Origin: Polyrhizophydium stewartii
Lineage: Eukaryota > Chytridiomycota > Chytridiomycetes > Rhizophydiales
Reading direction: 5' to 3'
Assembly (NCBI GenBank): GCA_027604665.1
Contig: JADGIZ010000068.1
Location: 1 to 31,375, forward strand
DNA length: 31,375 nucleotides
In this document: piece after piece, positions 2,565 through 31,375 of the stretch
Numbering within the stretch: the first letter of the stretch is position 1
Layout: each line of letters opens with the position of its first letter
Notes under the pieces: model-generated
The model's input: only the letters and a program-made list of their open reading frames with translations
Databases searched by the model: none
What the model was told of the DNA's origin: nothing
Program-made: the position numbers and the translations under genes

Positions 2565-3713
2565 TGATTATAGTTCAAATCTCTTTAGAAACTTTTATAA
2601 CTATGGTTAACCTAGAGCTTTTCCAACTAATTACACTATGGTATTAGATTACAGAGCCCAAGTTGGTAGGTGACCTTGTAATAGTAGTGCTATGTCATCA
2701 ATCAAAGATAGATTCCGCATCATCTAAAGAACAAATCGGAGATTTGGTAAAACCTGATCGCACAAACTCGAGTTTGTTTAGTAATTTCTAATCTTAAAAC
2801 CTATAACGGCCATCAGCGGCGGATGCCGCTCCAAGATGGCTTAGATAAGATCATAATTATTTTTATTTAATTCAGTAGGTCTAATTGCTATTCTATAGAT
2901 ATAATTAAATACAGATCTCAACCAACACTGATAAATCATTAGCTGGAACCATTACTGGTGCAATTTACCTAATACTTAAGCTTCAAATAGGTGCCCACTC
3001 TACCAATATTCAGATAAATTGATTGATCCTCCCTATTATTATCCTATCTATAACAATCTAAATGTAAAAGGGAGAAAATGAATAATCTAAAGAGAGGTAT
3101 TTAAGCACATGAAACTCAAAGTTGCTTCTATAAAATATTCTAAGAGTCTGATTAAAGATTAAATCAAGTTGTCTACTTACCAAAATAACCAGGTAATGTA
3201 GAGAATTAGTTTTCTAATAGCTTTAGGTGAATAAGAAAAGTACTCAAGAGTGCCTTGCAGTAATTGTAATAAGGGAGATAATAGTTTCAGAAACTTACAT
3301 TTGTTCAATTAATAATGTTTTCTATGAAGATCGTGGGAATATCTAGGGCTTCTGAGAGAAGCTAATTCTAGGGATGACGACTTTGTCATTGGTGGTTGAA
3401 CGATTATACCTGTAATGTTATTTTTATCGTGAATAATCTTCTAGTTAAAGTTAACTGTAGTAAGCTTAAGTCGGTGTCTTTGAATGGTGCGCTTATGGAT
3501 AATAAAAATGTCAAATAGTATATAAAGGTAAACTATCAAACAAAGAAGAAAATAGTAGATACAACAAATATATATGTAGAATAAAGTAAAACCAAAAAAG
3601 AGTAATGGACGATAATAAAAAACTAAGTTTAGACTTATGAAATAAGAAACCACCGTATAAATCAGTAAAACCTCAACTCATGTAAATGAGTGAAGTATTA
3701 TCTTCAGTAGTTT
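2565..3713. other. AT-rich spacer, no gene supported
   Basis: No tRNA, rRNA or protein motif was recognised. Short hairpins occur, for example around 2810-2840. The minus-strand open frame at 3441-3653 (70 codons) is an AT-rich, aromatic and leucine-rich translation with no family motif, and frames of this length are expected by chance in such DNA. Confidence 0.55.
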
Positions 3714-3837
3714 GAGCGGCTGGTGTGGCGTAGGCGAAGGCCGGCCACTCCGCGACCGGGGCCCCCCTTAGGGGGGCCCCCCCGGATCCTTCAGATCCGG
3801 GCCTCAGAAGAGCTTCTGAGGCGACGTCGCTAGCGAT
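3714..3837. repeat. Large composite GC cluster
   Basis: About 124 bases of nearly continuous hairpins: a GGCCGGCC-centred palindrome, a GGGGCCCCCC/GGGGGGCCCC palindrome, CCGGATC-CTTCA-GATCCGG (3782-3800), then the 41-nt module shared without change with 35-75 (here 3797-3837). The left part (gcggctggtgtggc, 3716-3729) resembles gcggctggagtggcc at 6065. Modules therefore appear in different combinations in different clusters. Confidence 0.8.
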
Positions 3838-5307
3838 GAAGTTTAGAACTACAATCAAAGCGACTAAGAAGATCTCTACCTATGTTGATTGAGGCAAGCT
3901 GCTATTATTAAATAGGCGAAATCCAAAAACTAAGAGGTTCAAATAAAGGAATAATAATATTGTCACCGCAACCTCCAAATTATGGAATAGCATACAATAT
4001 ATTAATAGAAGCATAAAGTAGAGTAATACAAAATAATTAGAAACTCAAATTGTAAAATGTCCTTGAGCGTGAGTAAAACCTGCTAACCAATCACCATTGG
4101 TGTAGAAACACCATATGCAGAAAATATGAGAAAAAAATGCTTAGTAAAAAGTATCTGAGACTTAAACGGAGGCGGGGATTTAGAAATGCAGCGAGCAACT
4201 CCGCGCCGCGGGAATTCGAAAGTGATCGATTCACAAATGCGGTTTATCAAATTGGCGCCCGCGGTGCGTTCACCTCCACGATTGATTCTACATTGATTGT
4301 TTTTTGGTTGATTTTTCGAGCATAATACCAAATAGATTTGTACTACAGCATTTATTCAAGTTGATGATAGAACCTACTAGATCTATAGAACTCATTAATA
4401 TGAGCCTTATTTGCATCTAGATTGTTTATAGATGATTTAGATAACATTGAGCAATCCACTGATTGCTTAGAGCACCATGATTCAGATCATTGGATGTCGG
4501 TGGTAACCAATTAGAATAGCACCCTTTGAGACTCTGGAACTAGTCGTAGTTGATAGATGGTTTGATGAGTTGTGGTATACTTTTAGGGTCCCAGGAAGCA
4601 CGGAAGAATCTCGAATAGAACCTTCAGCTTTTCTGTTTAGACTCGTAATTCCATATTATTAAACCAAATAGTAAGTGGTAAAACAATTACTAATGAAATA
4701 AAATTGCTATCTTACTGGAATTTACCTGGCTTACCAAAAGAATGGAGGGGTTTTCCTCCAGGAAAAGGAACTTTTAATTACATCTGATAATTCTATTTCA
4801 AAGAGTTATTAGAGAAATGCAGCTAAATCCCCTTTCATTGCATCTTTGAACTAAAAATCTAAATTAAGTAATCTGACTTCCTCCTGCAAAGAACATTGGT
4901 TGTCAACCACGAAACTTCAATAAACACAAATGAAATTTAATTATTCATCATTAACTTTTTCAATTTTTAATTGTGATCCATTCATTATGTTACCTTAATT
5001 AGAGCAATCCCACATAAGTTCAAATTCATTATCTGTCTTAATGAACACTATAATATTCTTGATGACAAATTATTAATAAAATATGTAGGTTACATCTTTA
5101 GAATTCTCTCCTCAAATAATTTTATCTCCCTTGTAGGTTCTGATCCCAATTATGGAATAATTGAGCAATCGTAGATTGCTTCTTATCTACTTCGCTTCAA
5201 GTGATTTTTATCTATTTTATTTACTTTACTAGACATATACATAGGATAAGTACATTGCTATCTGTCTCCTCCTAACATGCTAATTCAATTGAATAAGTGG
5301 ATGATTT
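3838..5307. other. AT-rich spacer with a truncated GC element and mini-hairpins
   Basis: No gene could be supported. A GC-rich patch at 4193-4282 contains CCGCG/CGCGG pairing and the right half of the 46-nt element. Two mini-hairpins of the gagca...tgctt family lie at 4449-4468 and 5163-5181. The overlapping open frames at 4083-4331 and 4137-4325 on opposite strands come from the GC patch and show no family motif. Confidence 0.55.
4258..4282 (+). repeat. 5'-truncated copy of the 46-nt GC element
   Basis: This segment matches the last part of the payload and the complete right arm of the 46-nt element, including acctccacgat. The left arm is absent: the sequence 5' of it is attgg followed by unrelated GC-rich bases. 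As at 2519, an AATTC-containing hairpin segment lies a short way upstream (about 4211). This is a broken or rearranged copy. Confidence 0.7.
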
Positions 5308-6446: not shown

Positions 6447-7352
6447 TGGTCAATCTTTATACTTATCACCTATTAGTCGATCTTCTATATCGATCAATTA
6501 GATGCCCTTTAAATATTCGGAAAGATAAAATACAAATAACTTCAATCATATCAGCTTCTACTAAGCTTCCATTATTAGCTGCTGCAAAAATAGTTTTATC
6601 ATTATCTTTTGGTTCCTATTTTAGGTTCTAGATTATTGTTGGTTGGATCTTTTTTATTGTTGATTACCTAATTAAGATTTATGTAAAATGTCTCATGTTC
6701 ACTAAATTTAAATATTCTTGTTAAGCCGTTTTCTGTCCAAGCTATCATCTATATTTTAATGTATAACATATTAATTACAAACTAATGAGATTACATTACA
6801 GCATCTAGTCTTAGAAATAAACCAATTAGTTATAACAGCAATTGATCCTTGTACCGCTTAGCTTAATGTCTTGAGAAGATTGATTCCAATAACAATAATC
6901 AAAATGTCTACGCTAAAACGATTGTTATGGTCCTTTGATCCAATTAATCAAATAGGTTCCACCGCTCATAGCTTCTTAAGATTGAATTCAGTTTAGTCAA
7001 TTGTTAAAGAAATGACAGTAATTAGGTGATCATTGATGATTAGAAATACCAAGAGATAATCAGATAGATGAACTGGAAATCCTAAATAGTCTACTAATTC
7101 TATCTCTATTGTTATGTTCAGCTGTTTAACTTAATCTATTTGATTTACAATTAGTTTAACCTCTTCTAGCAATAGTTGATTTAACATTTTTAACCTAAAG
7201 GAGATGATTATTGGAATACCCTGTTCAATATAAAATCACTTCTAGTATGTCTAATATAACCGTATTAGCTTCAGATAAACCTAGTTGATCTCAAAGTTCC
7301 ACATCGGCTGATTATTTCAATTGCTAGTTGTTGCCCTACCCTGGAACCACCT
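6447..7352. other. AT-rich spacer, no gene supported
   Basis: No complete gene is visible. An open frame of 61 codons starts at 6446 inside the GC cluster, and its translation does not hold a convincing family motif. A stretch near 7159-7203 gives a weak cox1-like reading that fails downstream (see rejected items). The tRNA-Tyr gene follows on the opposite strand. Confidence 0.5.
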
Positions 7353-7432
7353 GGAGGCGATAGGACTCGAACCTACATTGAGATTACTCACAGATTTACA
7401 GTCTGCTGTCTAACCAATTAGACTACGCCTCC
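7353..7432 (-). tRNA. trnY: tRNA-Tyr (anticodon GUA), long variable arm
   Basis: The minus strand folds into a complete cloverleaf. The acceptor stem is GGAGGCG/CGCCTCC (7 bp, perfect). The D-stem is GTCT/AGAC with loop AATTGGTT. The anticodon stem GCAGA/TCTGT, with one G-U pair, closes the loop CTGTAAA, which gives anticodon GUA (Tyr). The variable arm is GAG-TAAT-CTC, and the T-arm is GTAGG-TTCGAGT-CCTAT. A class II variable arm is usual for bacterial and organellar tRNA-Tyr but not for cytosolic eukaryotic ones, so it supports an organelle origin. CCA is not encoded. There are no stem mismatches, so tRNA editing is not needed. It is the only gene in the window that looks fully intact. Confidence 0.95.
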
Positions 7433-10264: not shown

Positions 10265-10397
10265 TCTTGGTCGCGACGTCGTCGCGGAGTGACCGGAGCC
10301 TTGTAAAGGCTCCTACGTCACGTCCGTGGCCGGCCCCATCCGGGGCCCCCGCCCCTCAAGGGGGCGGGCCTCATAAGAACTTCTGAGGCGACGCCAC
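10265..10397. repeat. Large composite GC cluster
   Basis: It combines tcgcgacgtcgtcgcg, the GGAGCC hairpin module (10284-10322, with GTGAC/GTCAC), GGCCGGCCCC/GGGGCC, CCGCCCC-TCAAG-GGGGCGGG and the variant 41-nt module (CCTCATAAG... to gcgacgccac, 10368-10397). The module order differs from other clusters. Confidence 0.8.
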
Positions 10398-10523
10398 ACC
10401 GCGGCATCCGCCGCTCACTTAAGTTTATAGCCCATCTACTAAGAGACCTAACCTGATATTTAGTCTAGATGGCCTACTAATCAATGGCTATCGTAATCAA
10501 TAAACATCAGCACCACATTATTG

Positions 10524-14954: not shown

Positions 14955-15075
14955 CTGGGGGCGACGCCCCGACGCTCAAGCGTGCTGACGCGACTAGCGT
15001 CCGCGACCGACCTCCGGTCACCGCCCCTCAAGGGGCGGGCCTCAGAAGAGCTTCTGAGGCGACGTCGCGGCCGCC
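14955..15075. repeat. Composite GC cluster with the 41-nt module core
   Basis: A GGGGCGACGCCCC hairpin and GACGC-TCAAG-CGTGC lead into the 26-nt segment shared with 10681-10706 (here 14994-15019). CCGCCCC-TCAA-GGGGCGG and the module CCTCAGAAG-AG-CTTCTGAGG-gacgtcgc (15037-15068) follow. Each part has a copy elsewhere, but this order is unique to the site. Confidence 0.8.
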
Positions 15076-15150
15076 GCAGCAATGCGTATTGATTTTATTG
15101 AAAGCTTCGAAGCTTCGAAGCTAGCAACGAAGAGGAGGCAAAAATAGGTG

Positions 15151-15230
15151 CCTGGGTCTGGGCGGGGCCCATCAAAGTGAGGCGAATGAGCTTGCCGAGT
15201 AAGCCGATACGTACTGAAGCCAGACCCAGG
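15151..15230 (+). other. Candidate structured RNA or long stem element
   Basis: CCTGGGTCTGG (15151-15161) pairs perfectly with CCAGACCCAGG (15220-15230), enclosing 58 bases of mixed composition. The interior starts gcggggccc and includes gagcttgccgagtaagccg and gatacgtac. It is not one simple palindrome, unlike the GC clusters. It is followed by gaaagcgtggc. No known RNA family was recognised. It lies at the junction between the GC-cluster half and the low-complexity tract. The strand is arbitrary. Confidence 0.35.
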
Positions 15231-15362
15231 GAAAGCGTGGCGTCGATCTACATGTCTTTTTGGTAGAAATAGCCCTACTTATGGTTTTGGAGTAGATGAT
15301 GTGTTAATTAAAATTACCTTAGATCTACATTGAATTACAAATAAGCAGTTAACTGTTGCTTA

Positions 15363-16640
15363 ATAAAGAGTACTTAACTAAAAATCTAATTTAAATAAAT
15401 AGATAGAGTTCTAATAAAGATAAATGGTAGTAAGCTATAAATGAGATAGCTAAATATATAATATCAGCCCTATAATAAGTAAGAGTATCAATGATTATAA
15501 GTTCTAATAGTTAAGGTAGATCCAGAGAGTTAATAATGAGAATCAAAGTATCAGATAGAGTCAATTAATGGTAAATATAAAGTAATGATAGATTCGTCCT
15601 AGGTATAATCTCAATAGTAATATAAGGGATAGGATAATCAATGTCAATAAGGATATCCCCTGGTCAATAATTATAATAATAGTACTAGATATAGTCAATT
15701 CTAGAAGGAATCTAGTGTCAGTAAGTCTAAATGTCAGTCTAGTTAAAGTCAGGAGTAATATCAATCTAAGGGATAATAGTATATCCATAGTCAATAATTC
15801 TTCATAATAGTAATATACATAATCCAATAAGTTAGGAAGAGTATATAGATGTAGGAAAATACTAGTAGATCAAGATAGTAACTCCATAGATTTTAGTAGA
15901 ATAGTTTATTAATTAAATAAGGAGTAATATCAGTATACTAGTAATAATTATAGTTCTTCTATTAATACAATTCTAGTCAATTAGATAAGTATCCTAGGGA
16001 TATTCAATTAATGTATATAATTGCGATGCATCGAAATGAGTATAAGTAATAGATAATACAAGTAGTTATAGTCCATCTCAATAATAGAGTAAAATAATTG
16101 GATAGGTAAGTAGAGTACTAGGATAGATATGATTATTAAGGATGAATACATAGAGGTACTTAGAATATCAGGATTAGAATATCATCAATAGAATCAGTAG
16201 ATCAAGTAAGATGGAGTGATCGGGGGTAATACTCCTATTGTTCTTCTATAATTAGTCTAGTCAAAATAATATTAATCAATCTCAGTAATAATAATGATCC
16301 CAAAGGGGCGTAATAATATGATTAATCTAGATAATCCTATAATTTATAGTCTTAGTACCAGATCTAATTAGTAGTAATCTATGTATCAATTAATAAGGTA
16401 GATAAGTAGAGTTATTATATGATGAGGTATATAATGGATAAAATAGAATCACTTAGTAATCGTCTATCTAAAGTATTGGGGATATCAAGTATCCCTAGAG
16501 TTAATGATAATATAGTACCTTATAGTCAGTCTAAGTAGTAGTATAGTAATTGGCGAAGCCATCGATGTATATTAGAAGTAATAGGATCTATAAGTATACT
16601 AACAATATTAGTAGGTATATAAGTGATATAGTTAAATAGA
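15363..16640. other. Gene-free low-complexity tract, G-skewed
   Basis: Built largely from short words such as agtaat, tagta, gtcaat and gataa, and dense in the trinucleotide TAG. G exceeds C: for example 16141-16200 has 12 G and 6 C. No tRNA, rRNA or protein motif was seen. The 88-codon minus-strand frame at 15561-15827 is leucine/isoleucine-rich and is a by-product of the word usage. Confidence 0.6.
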
Positions 16641-19570
16641 TATATGATAACTAAATATGGATAAATAATTAATAACTTATCAACAGTAAGAATGGATTCC
16701 TACATCTAAATAACTAATATTCTTAATATTAATCTATCTCTAGAACTCATAATTAATTACATAAAATATTAATGAATCATTTAAACTATAAATAAAATAG
16801 AACTAATATAAACACATTAATCAACTAATCTAACTAGAGTAAGTTGAATATTCTCATTAATAATAAATAACTTAATACCACCCAAATGTACATATCAATG
16901 CATAATCTATAAAATAACATTAATTAACTTGATTAGATACAATCCCTTCATAACAATCTTAATAATAGATATAATACACCATTTATACTAAATATAATAC
17001 TTACATATAATAGCATCAATGATGCCCATTACATAAATACTTTTAATCTAACTATTACATATAATCAATACTAACTATCATTCTTAATCAATCTAATGTT
17101 AGATAATATTGATATACTGTCATCCTTCATCAATCATTAATATATAATCCTTCACTATAATAGCCTCGGTGCTTCGCAATGATGCCCACTAATAACTTAC
17201 ACTTAATTAGAATAAACTAATCAATCTAATAATACTTTAACTCAATATTTCAATATCTACTTATCTATAATCAACACTTAATTAACATCTAATAAATAAT
17301 ATATCAATTTAGATCTCTGACTAACTCCTATAATTCTTATATATAGTTAACTTAATTAAATAACATAATAACTCTAATTCTAATCATTGCGAAGCACCAT
17401 AATACTTAATAAACTAGTATCCTTATACTTAATTCCTCTCATTAATAACTAAGTAATCTTATTCAATTTAACACTTATATAACATTAATCATCCGCTATT
17501 ATTGCATATCTACAGATGGGCCTCTATCTATATATCTATCTTAACCTCATACTAATCCGTAAGTAATAAATAACTATCTCATATAACTATTAACTTAACT
17601 TAATATAACTCTTATGTAGAAAATATATATGTATAACAATCCTAAATATTAATAGGAGATCTCTTAGATATTTTATATAACTCTCATGCTATTAACTAAC
17701 TTAGATAAGTCCAATAATCTCAGGGCTAAAATATGATAGACTAATGGGGAGGATATATACAACTATCAATAGATTTAGGGTAGATAAATTAGAAGACTAT
17801 CTATTAATACTCATATTTACTAAGAGCATAATAATTGCGACAGCATCACAATAATTCCATGAATAACAATAACTTAAGTCAATACATTAAACTAACACTT
17901 AATAACTCATAGTATATAACTATATCCACTTAATCTAGATAGATATAACAATAATATATATATTATCTATTGACAGTCATATTACTTTACTTAATAACTC
18001 ATTTAACTTAATATAATACTTACATTATCTACACTAATTACTTAATATCATAATAGAACAATAGCCATATTTTATTTATATCACTTAATTAATCCTAACT
18101 TAACTTACTTAAATTAATCACTCTAAATTCATAACATTAATACCTTTAATTATTAGGACCACGCTTATCTCAATAACACACACCTAACTATAAGCAATAT
18201 TTACTATATCACAGAATAAGCTAATATACATCAAATTTTACTTAAGAATAACACTAATTAACTTTAGATCCTGTATAACTATAATCAATAAGAATCCATA
18301 TAATTCTTAATCTAGAGTTTAATACCTTTGACCTTAATATCTAACAGCTTATCTAAATTAACTCAATGTAATCAATTCTAAATAACATGCAGACATTCTA
18401 GTTCTTAACGCTCATATAGACCCCCCAATTAAGAATGACACTTAATCTACATATAATAATAAACATATTATACATTTACAGTTTATCCCATAATCTAATC
18501 TAACATATCCTTAATCTATCTAAACCAGGTGATAGATAGAGATTCATAACATTAATAGAGATACAATATCTACATGAATATAATAACTTAATTATAGGAC
18601 TATAACACATACTAATAACCTAATACTTTCTATCATACTAATAAATAATAGAACCTACTTAATTAACACCTAAATAGACTCACTAATCAATTACATAATA
18701 TTTAACTTAATACTATTGACACTCATATCTATCTTTAATCTAATTTAGTAAATATATTAACCTCTCATTTAATAACTCTCTCTTCATATAAATAACTTAA
18801 CTCATTATACTAATAATTCACAACTAAAGTCATCATAATCTTAACAATAACTTAATAATGGTCCTATAACTCATTCATACTTAATAACACTTATACATAC
18901 ACAATATAATAATCTTATCCTTATATAATTTAACTATTAACATTCATAATATGCTTGCACATAAATATTACCTAATAGAGATCCATACCTTAAGTTAGAT
19001 ATAATACATCCCTCATTAAATAACCTAAATAATAATTCATCTTCATTAATCATAGCATTAATACATAAATAACTAGGTAATAATATAAATACTCCCGGCA
19101 GTAATTAAATACAAAATTAACTCAATATATATATATCCTACTAATAACAATAATAGAACACTTCACCTTCATATACAACATAAATTATTGTTAAACTATA
19201 CAGATCCACTTTATTAACTTAACTCTTATATACAATTAATTCACACCAAATAATAATAACATTGCGACAATAATTAACACTTTGATCATATAACAATAAG
19301 AGTTCAACATAGTTAGATACTTTAATAATAACTTAGACTAATACTATAATAAATGTCTTCACTTGTATAGTCATATACTTAATATCCCAGCTAGTTCCTA
19401 TCCTAGCTTACTTTAAATAATAACACTAGTTTTAGATAACTCTTAACCCTCATAATTACTAACTTACATCACCTTAATCTAATATCAATATAATAACTCA
19501 TACTATAATTAGATAATAACTAACACACTATGTACTAACAGACTTAATTCTACACCAATAAGAATTAATA
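16641..19570. other. Gene-free low-complexity tract, strongly C-skewed
   Basis: About 2.9 kb of recurring words such as taactta, acttaat, aatataa and tactta, with very little G. Bases 17221-17280 contain no G and 12 C; 18841-18900 has 2 G and 12 C. Small hairpins such as gcttcgc occur near 17172 and 17391. No gene was recognised. The skew is the reverse of that in the tract to the left, with the switch close to 16650. Confidence 0.6.
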
Positions 19571-19655
19571 ATGATTAACTTAATAAATAACATAGCCCAA
19601 AGTCATACTTGGAGAGGTCGGGTACCTACCAAAGTTCAGAGGATAATAGTACGCG

Positions 19656-20111
19656 TCAAAGAATGGTTAAATGGTAGACGTATGATCGTCCCATGTTCTC
19701 CCCTGTTAAATCCAACTGTAACTTACTCTTTTGCAATGACCTTGCCAAATTGGATCTATTCAATTCGCGGCGCCCCGATCCTTTACTGTTCAACCCAGTT
19801 ATAGAGAGAATCCCGCCGGCGCATACAAAAGGTAACAATGGGGGAATTACACCAAGAAAATCACGGGTAGGGTCTCGTTGATGAGCAGAACTACCTGGCC
19901 TTGTCAGTAAGGAATAAGATTGGAAGTTGACGGGGAGTCTGAGGAGTCTCACCATGAAGAGAACAATGGGCACCATAAGTTTTTCAAGCTCAGACCAATA
20001 AATAATCGAAGAAGCAGTCAAACGATCACGGATTAAACCAAGTAGAGGGACCGAATAACCGGTATAGCCGTAGGATTTGCCAAAAGGAAGCCTGGCGATT
20101 AGCGAAGGCAC
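19656..20111 (-). CDS. Unrecognised 151-codon open frame
   Basis: This is the longest ATG-to-stop frame in the window (ends in TGA). The translation starts MPSLIARLPFGKSYGYTGYS. It has a hydrophobic, arginine-bearing middle (around residues 45-60) and a second hydrophobic run around residues 87-103 containing IPPLLPFVCAGGI, then a basic, serine-rich C-terminus. I recognise no family. It lies wholly inside the 19.57-20.9 kb island, where composition makes long chance frames likelier than in the rest of the window. If the code reads TGA as Trp, the frame would continue. Whether it is expressed is unknown; a chance frame or a decayed gene are both possible. Confidence 0.25.
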   Translation of the reverse strand: MPSLIARLPFGKSYGYTGYSVPLLGLIRDRLTASSIIYWSELEKLMVPIVLFMVRLLRLPVNFQSYSLLTRPGSSAHQRDPTRDFLGVIPPLLPFVCAGGILSITGLNSKGSGRRELNRSNLARSLQKSKLQLDLTGENMGRSYVYHLTIL

Positions 20112-28957: not shown

Positions 28958-29957
28958 TAATTAATATTTATTGAGGATAGATTGGAAACTTCGTCAGGAG
29001 GACCTATGTCTGCTCGATATCTGAGGCAAAGAGGCTAGACCTGCTCTGCCTTCCAGGCGTCCCGGGTCTTTGTGACCAGAATATCTTACCCTCCCTATGG
29101 CTATGTCTGCCCCCTCTGCCTGAAGGGTTGCTACTGTCTCTTGCGGATATCTTATAGCTAATATTGTCTAGTATCGCAAGTATTAATTGACTACTATATC
29201 TGACCTATAAGATGTTATTAATATTAATGGGGATATATCCCGTATATGTTATAAATATTATCTATATATATTAGAGTAAAAGTATGTATTATTGAGAATG
29301 AAGTCCCATCGGACTTTCCCAGGTATACCTTATCTGATGCCAGATGTGAGCCAAGTCAGAGGATAGATCCAATAACCCCCTATAATAGTTGACATAGGTA
29401 ATGTGCTAGATTAATGCTAGAGCAATCAGCAGTATAAGGATAACATAGATAGTAAATGAATAAGTAACGGGAGAATCTAACAGAATGAGTTGGAATCAAG
29501 TTAATACTTAAATATCTCTGCGGATCTTTATAGGTCAATTGCGGAGCATCTAGGCCTCAAAGATTAGGATATCTAATAACAAGTCTATAAGTGATAGTAA
29601 TAAGTACGAAGTGGGTAAATAAAGGGACATACTAATAGGTATATTATCCCATTGTAAATCTAGTTATAGTGAGACTAGTCAAAATAGAATAATAAGAAGT
29701 ACGTAGTACTGGATAATGAGTAATAGCAGATTAAGCTAAGAAGTTTAATAATAGATTGCTAGCCAATGCTAAATAACAATCGAATATTCTCATGTAAATA
29801 CTAATCTCATGTTAATAATAGTATCTATATTAGTAACTATCAATTGAATATCATAACGTATGGGATAATAATAGTTTATGAGTAAGATATATCTAATCTT
29901 TTAATAATTAAAATCATCCCGTTCCGAGGGGACTCTGGACCCGAGGTCCATAGGAAG
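28958..29957. other. AT-rich spacer downstream of the nad2-like region
   Basis: A small GC hairpin, GGACC-CGA-GGTCC (29937-29949), lies at the point where nad2 similarity stops. The remainder gives hydrophobic readings on the minus strand (29370-29650) with stops; no nad3 or other usual neighbour was recognised. Confidence 0.45.
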
Positions 29958-30936
29958 GCCAATATGAATAAATAAAAAATAATTTAGGGGTGGAATACCA
30001 GCCAATGAGAAATAGGATAATAATAATGAAAGATTAAGATAAGGATTTTAAACCAGATAAATGAGAAATAAAATAAAATTCTTTTTAAGAATTATTAATA
30101 AGATATTAAATATAATTAAAATAATAAAAGAGATCCGAAGGCCATAAGAAAAATGATAAGAGATTAAAGTTAATAATAAATAACCTAAATGACTTTAACT
30201 TCAAAATCTTTTAATATAAATTAAACCAATTAAAATACTAGAAAGACCAATAATTTCTAATAATTGAAACCTAAGAAATGACCAGAAGTTAAAAGGAAAA
30301 TAAGATCTAAAAAGAGGATAAGAGTCATTTTAGGAATAATCATAATATATAAATTTCTATGGTACAAACCCTAATTTCATTAAAATAGGTTAACATAAAG
30401 TCATAAATAATATCTCATGATTAGAAAATAAATAATATATATAGCATCAAAATGTAAATCACCTACATTTGAATAAAATCTAAATAATATTTAATAAAAA
30501 GAAAGTAGTACTTATCATAATATATTTTAAAGTCATTGATAAAGTTTTAGGATTCATAAGTATTATAAAATATATAATTCCCAAGATATAATAGTTAATA
30601 CTAAATCATAACTATTTAATAATAAACCTATACTAACTAAATTACACAATCTTGCTAGCAAGACTATTTATTTTAAATTTTCTAATAATTCTATATCTAA
30701 GTCTAAATTTAAATTGATAATTAAATTATCTATATTTCTGATGAGGTTATATATGTATCTATTTTTACTACCCCATCATATAAGAATATCTCATTTCTAA
30801 TATTTCCTGATGTTTGAGGTATAGGTAAATAAAAACCTATTAATAATGTAATATAACTAAATAAAATTAATTTTGTTATTCGATTTAGGACCTGTTTATC
30901 ATGAGTTAGATAAGCCTAATATTGATTTAAGATCAT
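29958..30936 (-). pseudogene. nad2: nad2-like gene with in-frame stops and two frame changes
   Basis: NADH dehydrogenase subunit 2 is a proton-pumping membrane subunit of complex I. On the minus strand its landmarks appear in order. LNRI lies at 30877-30888 (frame open 30915-30733), then LYDGVVKIDTY. SYDLVLTIISWEL follows, with the usual nine-residue spacing from D to E. Next come TLKYIM, KLGFVP (30360-30377), IKRF and SHLGYLLL (30171-30194). NPYLNLSLLLSYFSLAGIPP follows (SLAGIPPL at 29985-30008). From about 30560 to 29958 one frame holds throughout, yet it contains TAG at 30480 and 30357 and TAA at 30390, 30330, 30195 and 30048, plus TGA where Trp is plausible. Two frame changes are needed, near 30735 and 30560. 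ATG at 30934-30936 is a possible start, but a TAG follows at 30916. At about 326 codons it is shorter than fungal nad2 (roughly 480-580) and lacks the C-terminal third. Confidence 0.72.
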
Positions 30937-31375
30937 TCCTATACTTAAACTCAATTAGTATAAATAAAGTATATATTATAATTTGATACTTTTATTTAAA
31001 TATTAATAACTATAGTTAACTATCATCTGAAATAATAAAAGATATTATTTTTAACTGTATTAATTAGATGTTATAGTAATAGATGTTAGCATAAGCCTAT
31101 ACTAGAACTCACACGTGACGATCTAAATTTATTGATTAATGGTACTTATTATAGCCTATAATAAATCATAATTTCTAGTATTTAAACATCTAAAAATGAA
31201 ATTTTAATTATATGATCTACAATCGCTTTTCTATGTGGGAATCAAATCTCTAGTTTTTGGATCTTTTAACATATTTATCAAGTAATAAATCAATATATTA
31301 AACTTTAAATCTTAATCTACCACCTTTACCTAAAGAATTTTTATGATAATACTTAAGTATTTAATAACTTTATTG
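30937..31375. other. AT-rich region upstream of nad2-like gene, unassigned
   Basis: A minus-strand reading SLGKGGRLRFKV near 31340-31300 is basic and glycine-rich and could be a ribosomal-protein fragment, but stops follow and no family can be named. The window ends here. Confidence 0.35.

Follow-up and report, generated by a model that had tools for sequence, protein, structure and literature searches.

A broken, partly deleted nad2 copy in Polyrhizophydium stewartii is very probably an ordinary mitochondrial pseudogene

Kinetoplastid cryptogenes and the genes subject to insertional editing in Physarum have frames that are broken in the DNA. Large fungal mitochondrial genomes (mtDNA) likewise harbor pseudogenes and duplicated gene fragments, which are broken extra copies standing beside an open gene. 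The nad2 copy of the chytrid Polyrhizophydium stewartii described here resembles the latter. It differs from the edited systems in that every kind of base is missing, in blocks, and in that an open copy exists. Relative to the fungal mtDNA pseudogenes, nothing is distinctive except an apparently long divergence before decay.

The window analyzed here is the entire contig C68 (JADGIZ010000068.1; 31,375 nucleotides) of a 690-contig, 12.86-Mb assembly. Judging from sequence comparison, we consider it very probable that the nad2 in this window is a dead, partly deleted copy in fungal mtDNA. Read as an ordinary pseudogene, it drops out as a candidate for hidden RNA editing, and its frame-blind deletions offer a view of how such large mtDNA decays.

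Identity and setting of the nad2 copy

Similarity to nad2 runs in colinear order along the minus strand from about 30954 to 29960, at the contig end. The first-pass annotation had named the gene from motifs in the right order, and both the identity and the order are borne out by alignments scoring far above shuffled sequence. An nad2 frame on another contig of the same assembly, C611, gives a DNA alignment score of 298 against the window (mean 136 and maximum 168 for 100 dinucleotide shuffles), with 579 of 803 aligned bases identical between window 30792-29963 (minus) and C611 1152-2129. In a frame-aware alignment to the C611 protein the window reaches 339, and none of 60 shuffles exceeds 110; at a frame-shift penalty of -15, our main setting, it spans 30789-29960 and 132 of the 272 listed residue pairs are identical. 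Three database nad2 proteins (P0121, P0122 and P0125) extend the similarity upstream, their alignments starting at 30948-30954 and ending at about 29978.

The annotation had proposed a profile search of the stop-containing translation, and the read-through matches at E 8.6e-20 a profile that was built from 22 database nad2 proteins and excludes both C611 and the window. The joining of frames in this read-through was guided by C611, which biases it toward similarity; the same profile also matched two of the three unjoined frames (E 6.8e-5 and 1.6e-4), and none of 200 shuffles and 198 decoys rose above 4.7 bits. Other searches were weak or negative. Pfam returned no match on the three unjoined frames of the region and, on the read-through, no nad2-type match (PF00361), only an unrelated one below threshold (E 0.021). 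A tblastn search with 120 database nad2 proteins matched the window weakly with one of them (E 0.006), and a protein search of the species' own genome with the C611 protein recovered the window copy at a similarly weak E 0.02. The copy and other features of the window are as follows.

29960..30954, minus: decayed copy of the N-terminal portion of nad2, as far as the GIPPL region (alignments to C611 and database proteins)
30721..30723, minus: in-frame TAA facing Leu (TAG) of C611 (protein alignments)
30709..30711, minus: in-frame TAA facing Leu (CTT) of C611 (protein alignments)
30673..30675, minus: in-frame TAA facing Arg of C611 (protein alignments)
30390..30392, minus: in-frame TAA facing Leu (TTA) of C611 (protein alignments)
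30346..30362, minus: PFHNW...DLYDN segment missing, a frame change followed by a 14-codon gap (C611 alignment)
30195..30203, minus: a TGA and a TAA close to the KR..YS.SHLG motif, preceded directly by a three-codon loss (C611 alignment)
30048..30050, minus: in-frame TAA facing Leu (TTA) of C611 (protein alignments)
29916..29960, minus: GC-rich, hairpin-forming stretch at which nad2 similarity ends (fold of -14.9 kcal/mol for a 66-base stretch)
7352..7432, minus: tRNA-Tyr (GTA), the sole tRNA gene found in the window

We infer that the contig is mitochondrial because its GC content is low, like that of the nad loci, and because it shares repeats with nad contigs. The assembly also contains nuclear DNA, as seen from actin matches. 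GC is 0.344 in the window and 0.27-0.44 in the other mitochondrial-type loci that were fetched, versus 0.671 and 0.652 at two actin loci; short dispersed repeats, some of them identical, are common to the window and the contigs bearing nad4 (C285), nad5 (C4) and nad2 (C611). Both observations count against a nuclear contig on which nad2 is a nuclear copy of mitochondrial DNA, a reading that we hold to be improbable even though nuclear copies of this sort typically contain decayed organelle genes. For nad4, the first match that names an organism is Rhizophydium sp. 136, at 53% identity (among 120 of 6021 matches listed).

The open frames of this mtDNA indicate how the stops in the window should be read. 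TAG occurs inside the open frames of nad4 (9 in 476 codons), nad5 (9 in 539) and nad2 (17 in 467), while no TAA lies inside any of these three frames; nad4 and nad5 end in TAA, and nad2 and nad1 in TGA. This is the pattern of NCBI table 16, with TAG as sense and TAA and TGA as ends. In the chytrid mitochondria annotated in PMC6131824, TAG is read as Leu under that table. Similarly, Leu is the largest class of database residues at the TAG columns here (203 counts for nad4, 572 for nad2), with other residues at several columns, and at two strongly conserved nad2 TAG columns it occurs in 100 and 109 of at most 112 database proteins. We therefore read TAG as sense and probably as Leu, as in other chytrids. 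ARAGORN found no tRNA, including tRNA-Leu(CUA), in 15 stretches of C611, C285, C42 and C4, which contain some N letters and make up a small part of the mtDNA. Five database nad2 proteins (P0123, P0124, P0126, P0127 and P0128) have Gln where their relatives have Leu, which suggests that these entries come from mitochondria with TAG as Leu but were translated with TAG as Gln. With TAG as sense, the real breaks in the window copy are TAA and TGA, and the worry about its stops partly dissolves.

A second nad2, for which the first-pass annotation had suggested looking, exists elsewhere in the assembly. The gene on C611 is one open frame of 467 codons, from a predicted start to TGA, with TAG inside as sense; it matches PF00361 over its full length (E 8.4e-36) and is likely a working gene. 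Its first organism-named match is Blastocladiella emersonii, at 33% (among 120 of 715 matches listed). The window copy is colinear with C611 nad2 and its sister, but it is broken and its C-terminal fifth is undetected. An open copy elsewhere in the genome is what an ordinary pseudogene would leave, and given this frame the window copy is most likely a dead gene rather than one corrected in RNA.

Stops, gaps and lost segments

A functional nad2 would be expected to form one open frame under the code of this mtDNA. In the window copy, alignment to the C611 protein at the -15 setting yields six TAA codons, one TGA and six frame changes. These counts depend on the frame-shift penalty: there are 8, 6, 4, 4 and 4 frame changes at penalties of -12, -15, -20, -25 and -30, and 13 at the loosest, -8, while total stops vary from 6 to 9 between -12 and -30 and fall to 4 at -8. 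As controls for the frame counter, alignments of C611 with P0121, P0122 and P0125 gave 1, 0 and 0 frame changes, the single change lying in the N-terminal part of C611 nad2, which carries a GC-rich, insert-like stretch. The first-pass annotation had counted six TAA/TAG stops and two frame changes. The TAA breaks are real, but TAG is not a break; frame changes do exist, but two is too few at every penalty used.

The annotation had also held that the stops do not line up with one conserved amino acid, which is incorrect, as five of the six TAA codons face Leu in C611. Leu makes up 83 of 408 residues of C611 nad2, and TTA, the commonest Leu codon (47 of the 83), is one step from TAA. Because Leu is abundant and TTA so close to TAA, decay also predicts stops that face Leu.

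Whole segments of the protein are missing as well. The 14-codon gap takes in conserved W, D and Y columns of nad2, and a search for the C-terminal fifth (the last ~83 residues) beyond the GC-rich stretch did not exceed shuffles with any of five proteins. Thus, the window copy lacks both the PFHNW-DLY segment and the C-terminal helices that a functional nad2 would carry.

The pattern of insertions and deletions points the same way. In a DNA alignment to C611 that is blind to frame, there are 42 gaps, 1 to 18 bases long, in the 803 aligned bases; 32 of them are bases missing from the window copy, and 13 of the 42 are divisible by three. Without selection on frame, one third of gaps is expected to be so. 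At other gap costs the fractions are 8/26, 8/21 and 23/87, with 2/6 in a short alignment. The gaps therefore have no frame preference, as in a pseudogene. By comparison, the open nad1 frames of contigs C17 and C233, which are more diverged (395 of 598 bases identical), differ by five gaps. It had been argued from few indels and frame changes of one kind that the locus had too few for a neutral pseudogene; with 42 gaps versus five in the nad1 pair, this argument for a cryptogene fails. A total of 175 bases are missing relative to C611 (58 T, 56 A, 35 C and 26 G). A U- or C-insertion cryptogene would instead lack mostly single bases of one kind, and with all four kinds absent here, insertion of U alone or of C alone would not suffice.

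Overall, the frame-blind gaps, the TAA and TGA breaks, the lost segments and the open C611 nad2 support the decayed duplicate that the first-pass annotation had listed among its alternatives.

Competing readings of the broken frame

The cryptogene reading, in which RNA editing by insertion or substitution restores a working nad2 mRNA, draws on the conserved residues outside the gaps, most of which are kept (29 of 38), and on the Leu opposite five of the six TAA codons. We judge it very improbable. Open nad4, nad5 and nad1 frames read without correction, an open nad2 exists on C611, and what is absent from the window copy is whole conserved protein segments rather than single bases, in addition to bases of every kind. 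Given the open C611 nad2 and the frame-blind gaps, we find no support for cryptic coding, and U-insertion editing in particular is rejected.

Errors of assembly or sequencing could have damaged a good gene, as the copy lies on a single contig whose end is about 400 bases away. However, 224 of the 803 bases aligned with C611 differ, whole conserved segments are absent, and dispersed repeats elsewhere are 100% identical, a sign of a low error rate; error is thus a very slight prospect.

Finally, a code in which TAA is reassigned to Leu, or bypassing of the stops, would allow the copy to be translated as it is, and an nad2 fragment on C4, read by eye, likewise has TAA where Leu is expected, but we reject both as scarcely credible, since TAA is absent from the inside of the open nad4, nad5 and nad2 frames and ends two of them, TTA lies one step away, and a new code leaves the frame changes and missing segments unexplained.

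History of the copy and the surrounding mtDNA

Branch length, residue conservation and codon periodicity of the window copy count against the pseudogene reading. A tree of 24 nad2 sequences pairs the copy with C611 as its sister (support 0.981), the branch measuring 0.673 for the window copy and 0.542 for C611, a ratio of 1.24. Between the two, 125 of 258 compared residues are identical, so that about half of the aligned residues differ. Twelve database nad2 proteins define 51 columns with at least 90% conservation, of which C611 retains 40 and the window copy 29; of the losses in the window copy, 11 are due to gaps or frame changes and two to stops, and outside these it has 29 of 38. Q was scored as L in this count because several database entries seem to read TAG as Q. 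Substitutions at codon positions 1, 2 and 3 amount to 0.286, 0.222 and 0.330 between the window copy and C611, and to 0.300, 0.235 and 0.485 in the nad1 pair, so that codon periodicity is present in the window copy, if weaker than in the nad1 pair. Neutrality ever since duplication would predict a far longer branch than 1.24 times that of C611. The window copy was therefore probably long under selection and died late.

These data suggest a sequence of events. The window copy would have been under long selection, whether as an old duplicate or within another mitochondrial lineage before transfer. Later decay would have introduced small deletions blind to frame, together with TAA and TGA codons. 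The PFHNW-DLY segment would have been lost, as would the C-terminal end, in whose place the GC-rich hairpin element now stands.

More tentatively, two anciently separated nad lines may have resided in one mtDNA (nad2 on C611 and in the window; nad1 on C17 and C233), both long selected, through duplication or mixed mitochondrial lineages, with one line now in decay in an mtDNA that is very large and rich in repeats. We regard this as possible but doubtful. If two old nad lines do coexist, the window copy dates the duplication or the mixing of mitochondrial lineages. The nad1 open frames are L049 (C17) and L050 (C233), of which the C233 frame spans family positions 4-201 (out of 298). TAG occurs nine times within the nad1 match of C233 and twice in that of C17, which suggests that C233 nad1 belongs to a second, TAG-rich nad line, like C611 nad2. 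Apart from nad1, a single weak repeat match is all that ties C233 to the mitochondrial set.

Seventeen contigs with mitochondrial genes or window repeats (C1, C2, C4, C17, C20, C29, C31, C32, C42, C61, C68, C98, C133, C233, C285, C467 and C611) total 648,913 bases; should all of them be mitochondrial, this mtDNA would be very large. Searches of the assembly by gene family returned other matches with internal stops: nad1 on C2, C61 and C32, cob on C133 and in one of two C285 pieces, and some cox1 pieces. Together with the nad2 fragment on C4, the nad1 matches and the cob on C133 favor the pseudogene reading, although intron-flanked exons may account for some of these matches. On C42 (L027 4631-6400), nad2 and nad3 of a more usual fungal type lie in a stretch whose frame shifts when read by eye; it may be a broken copy or exons with introns. 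Pieces of cox1 lie on C29 and C98 and pieces of cob on C42 and C285, a scatter that may reflect long introns, split genes or assembly breaks.

The first-pass annotation had seen no other intact protein gene in 31 kb. The longest stop-to-stop frame in the window under code 16 is 210 aa, Pfam searches covered the nad2 region and 15201-20100, and the nad4, nad5 and nad1 of the same assembly score 56 to 76 against the window (raw scores). Two further nad2-like candidates were rejected: one at 15.3-17 kb (minus) scored 116 where shuffles reach 136, and one at 21-22.8 kb (plus) reached 115 where the best of 60 shuffles gave 113, with all five database nad2 proteins at only 52 to 87. An AT-rich island at 15300-19500, with GC skew of -0.42 and -0.58 at 17-19 kb, has no convincing nad match, and Pfam found no match in the six frames of 15201-20100. 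Four GC-rich stretches (3700-3860, 10270-10400, 15000-15080 and 29916-29960) fold into several hairpins and resemble the mobile hairpin elements of mtDNA; the first three are common to many other contigs.
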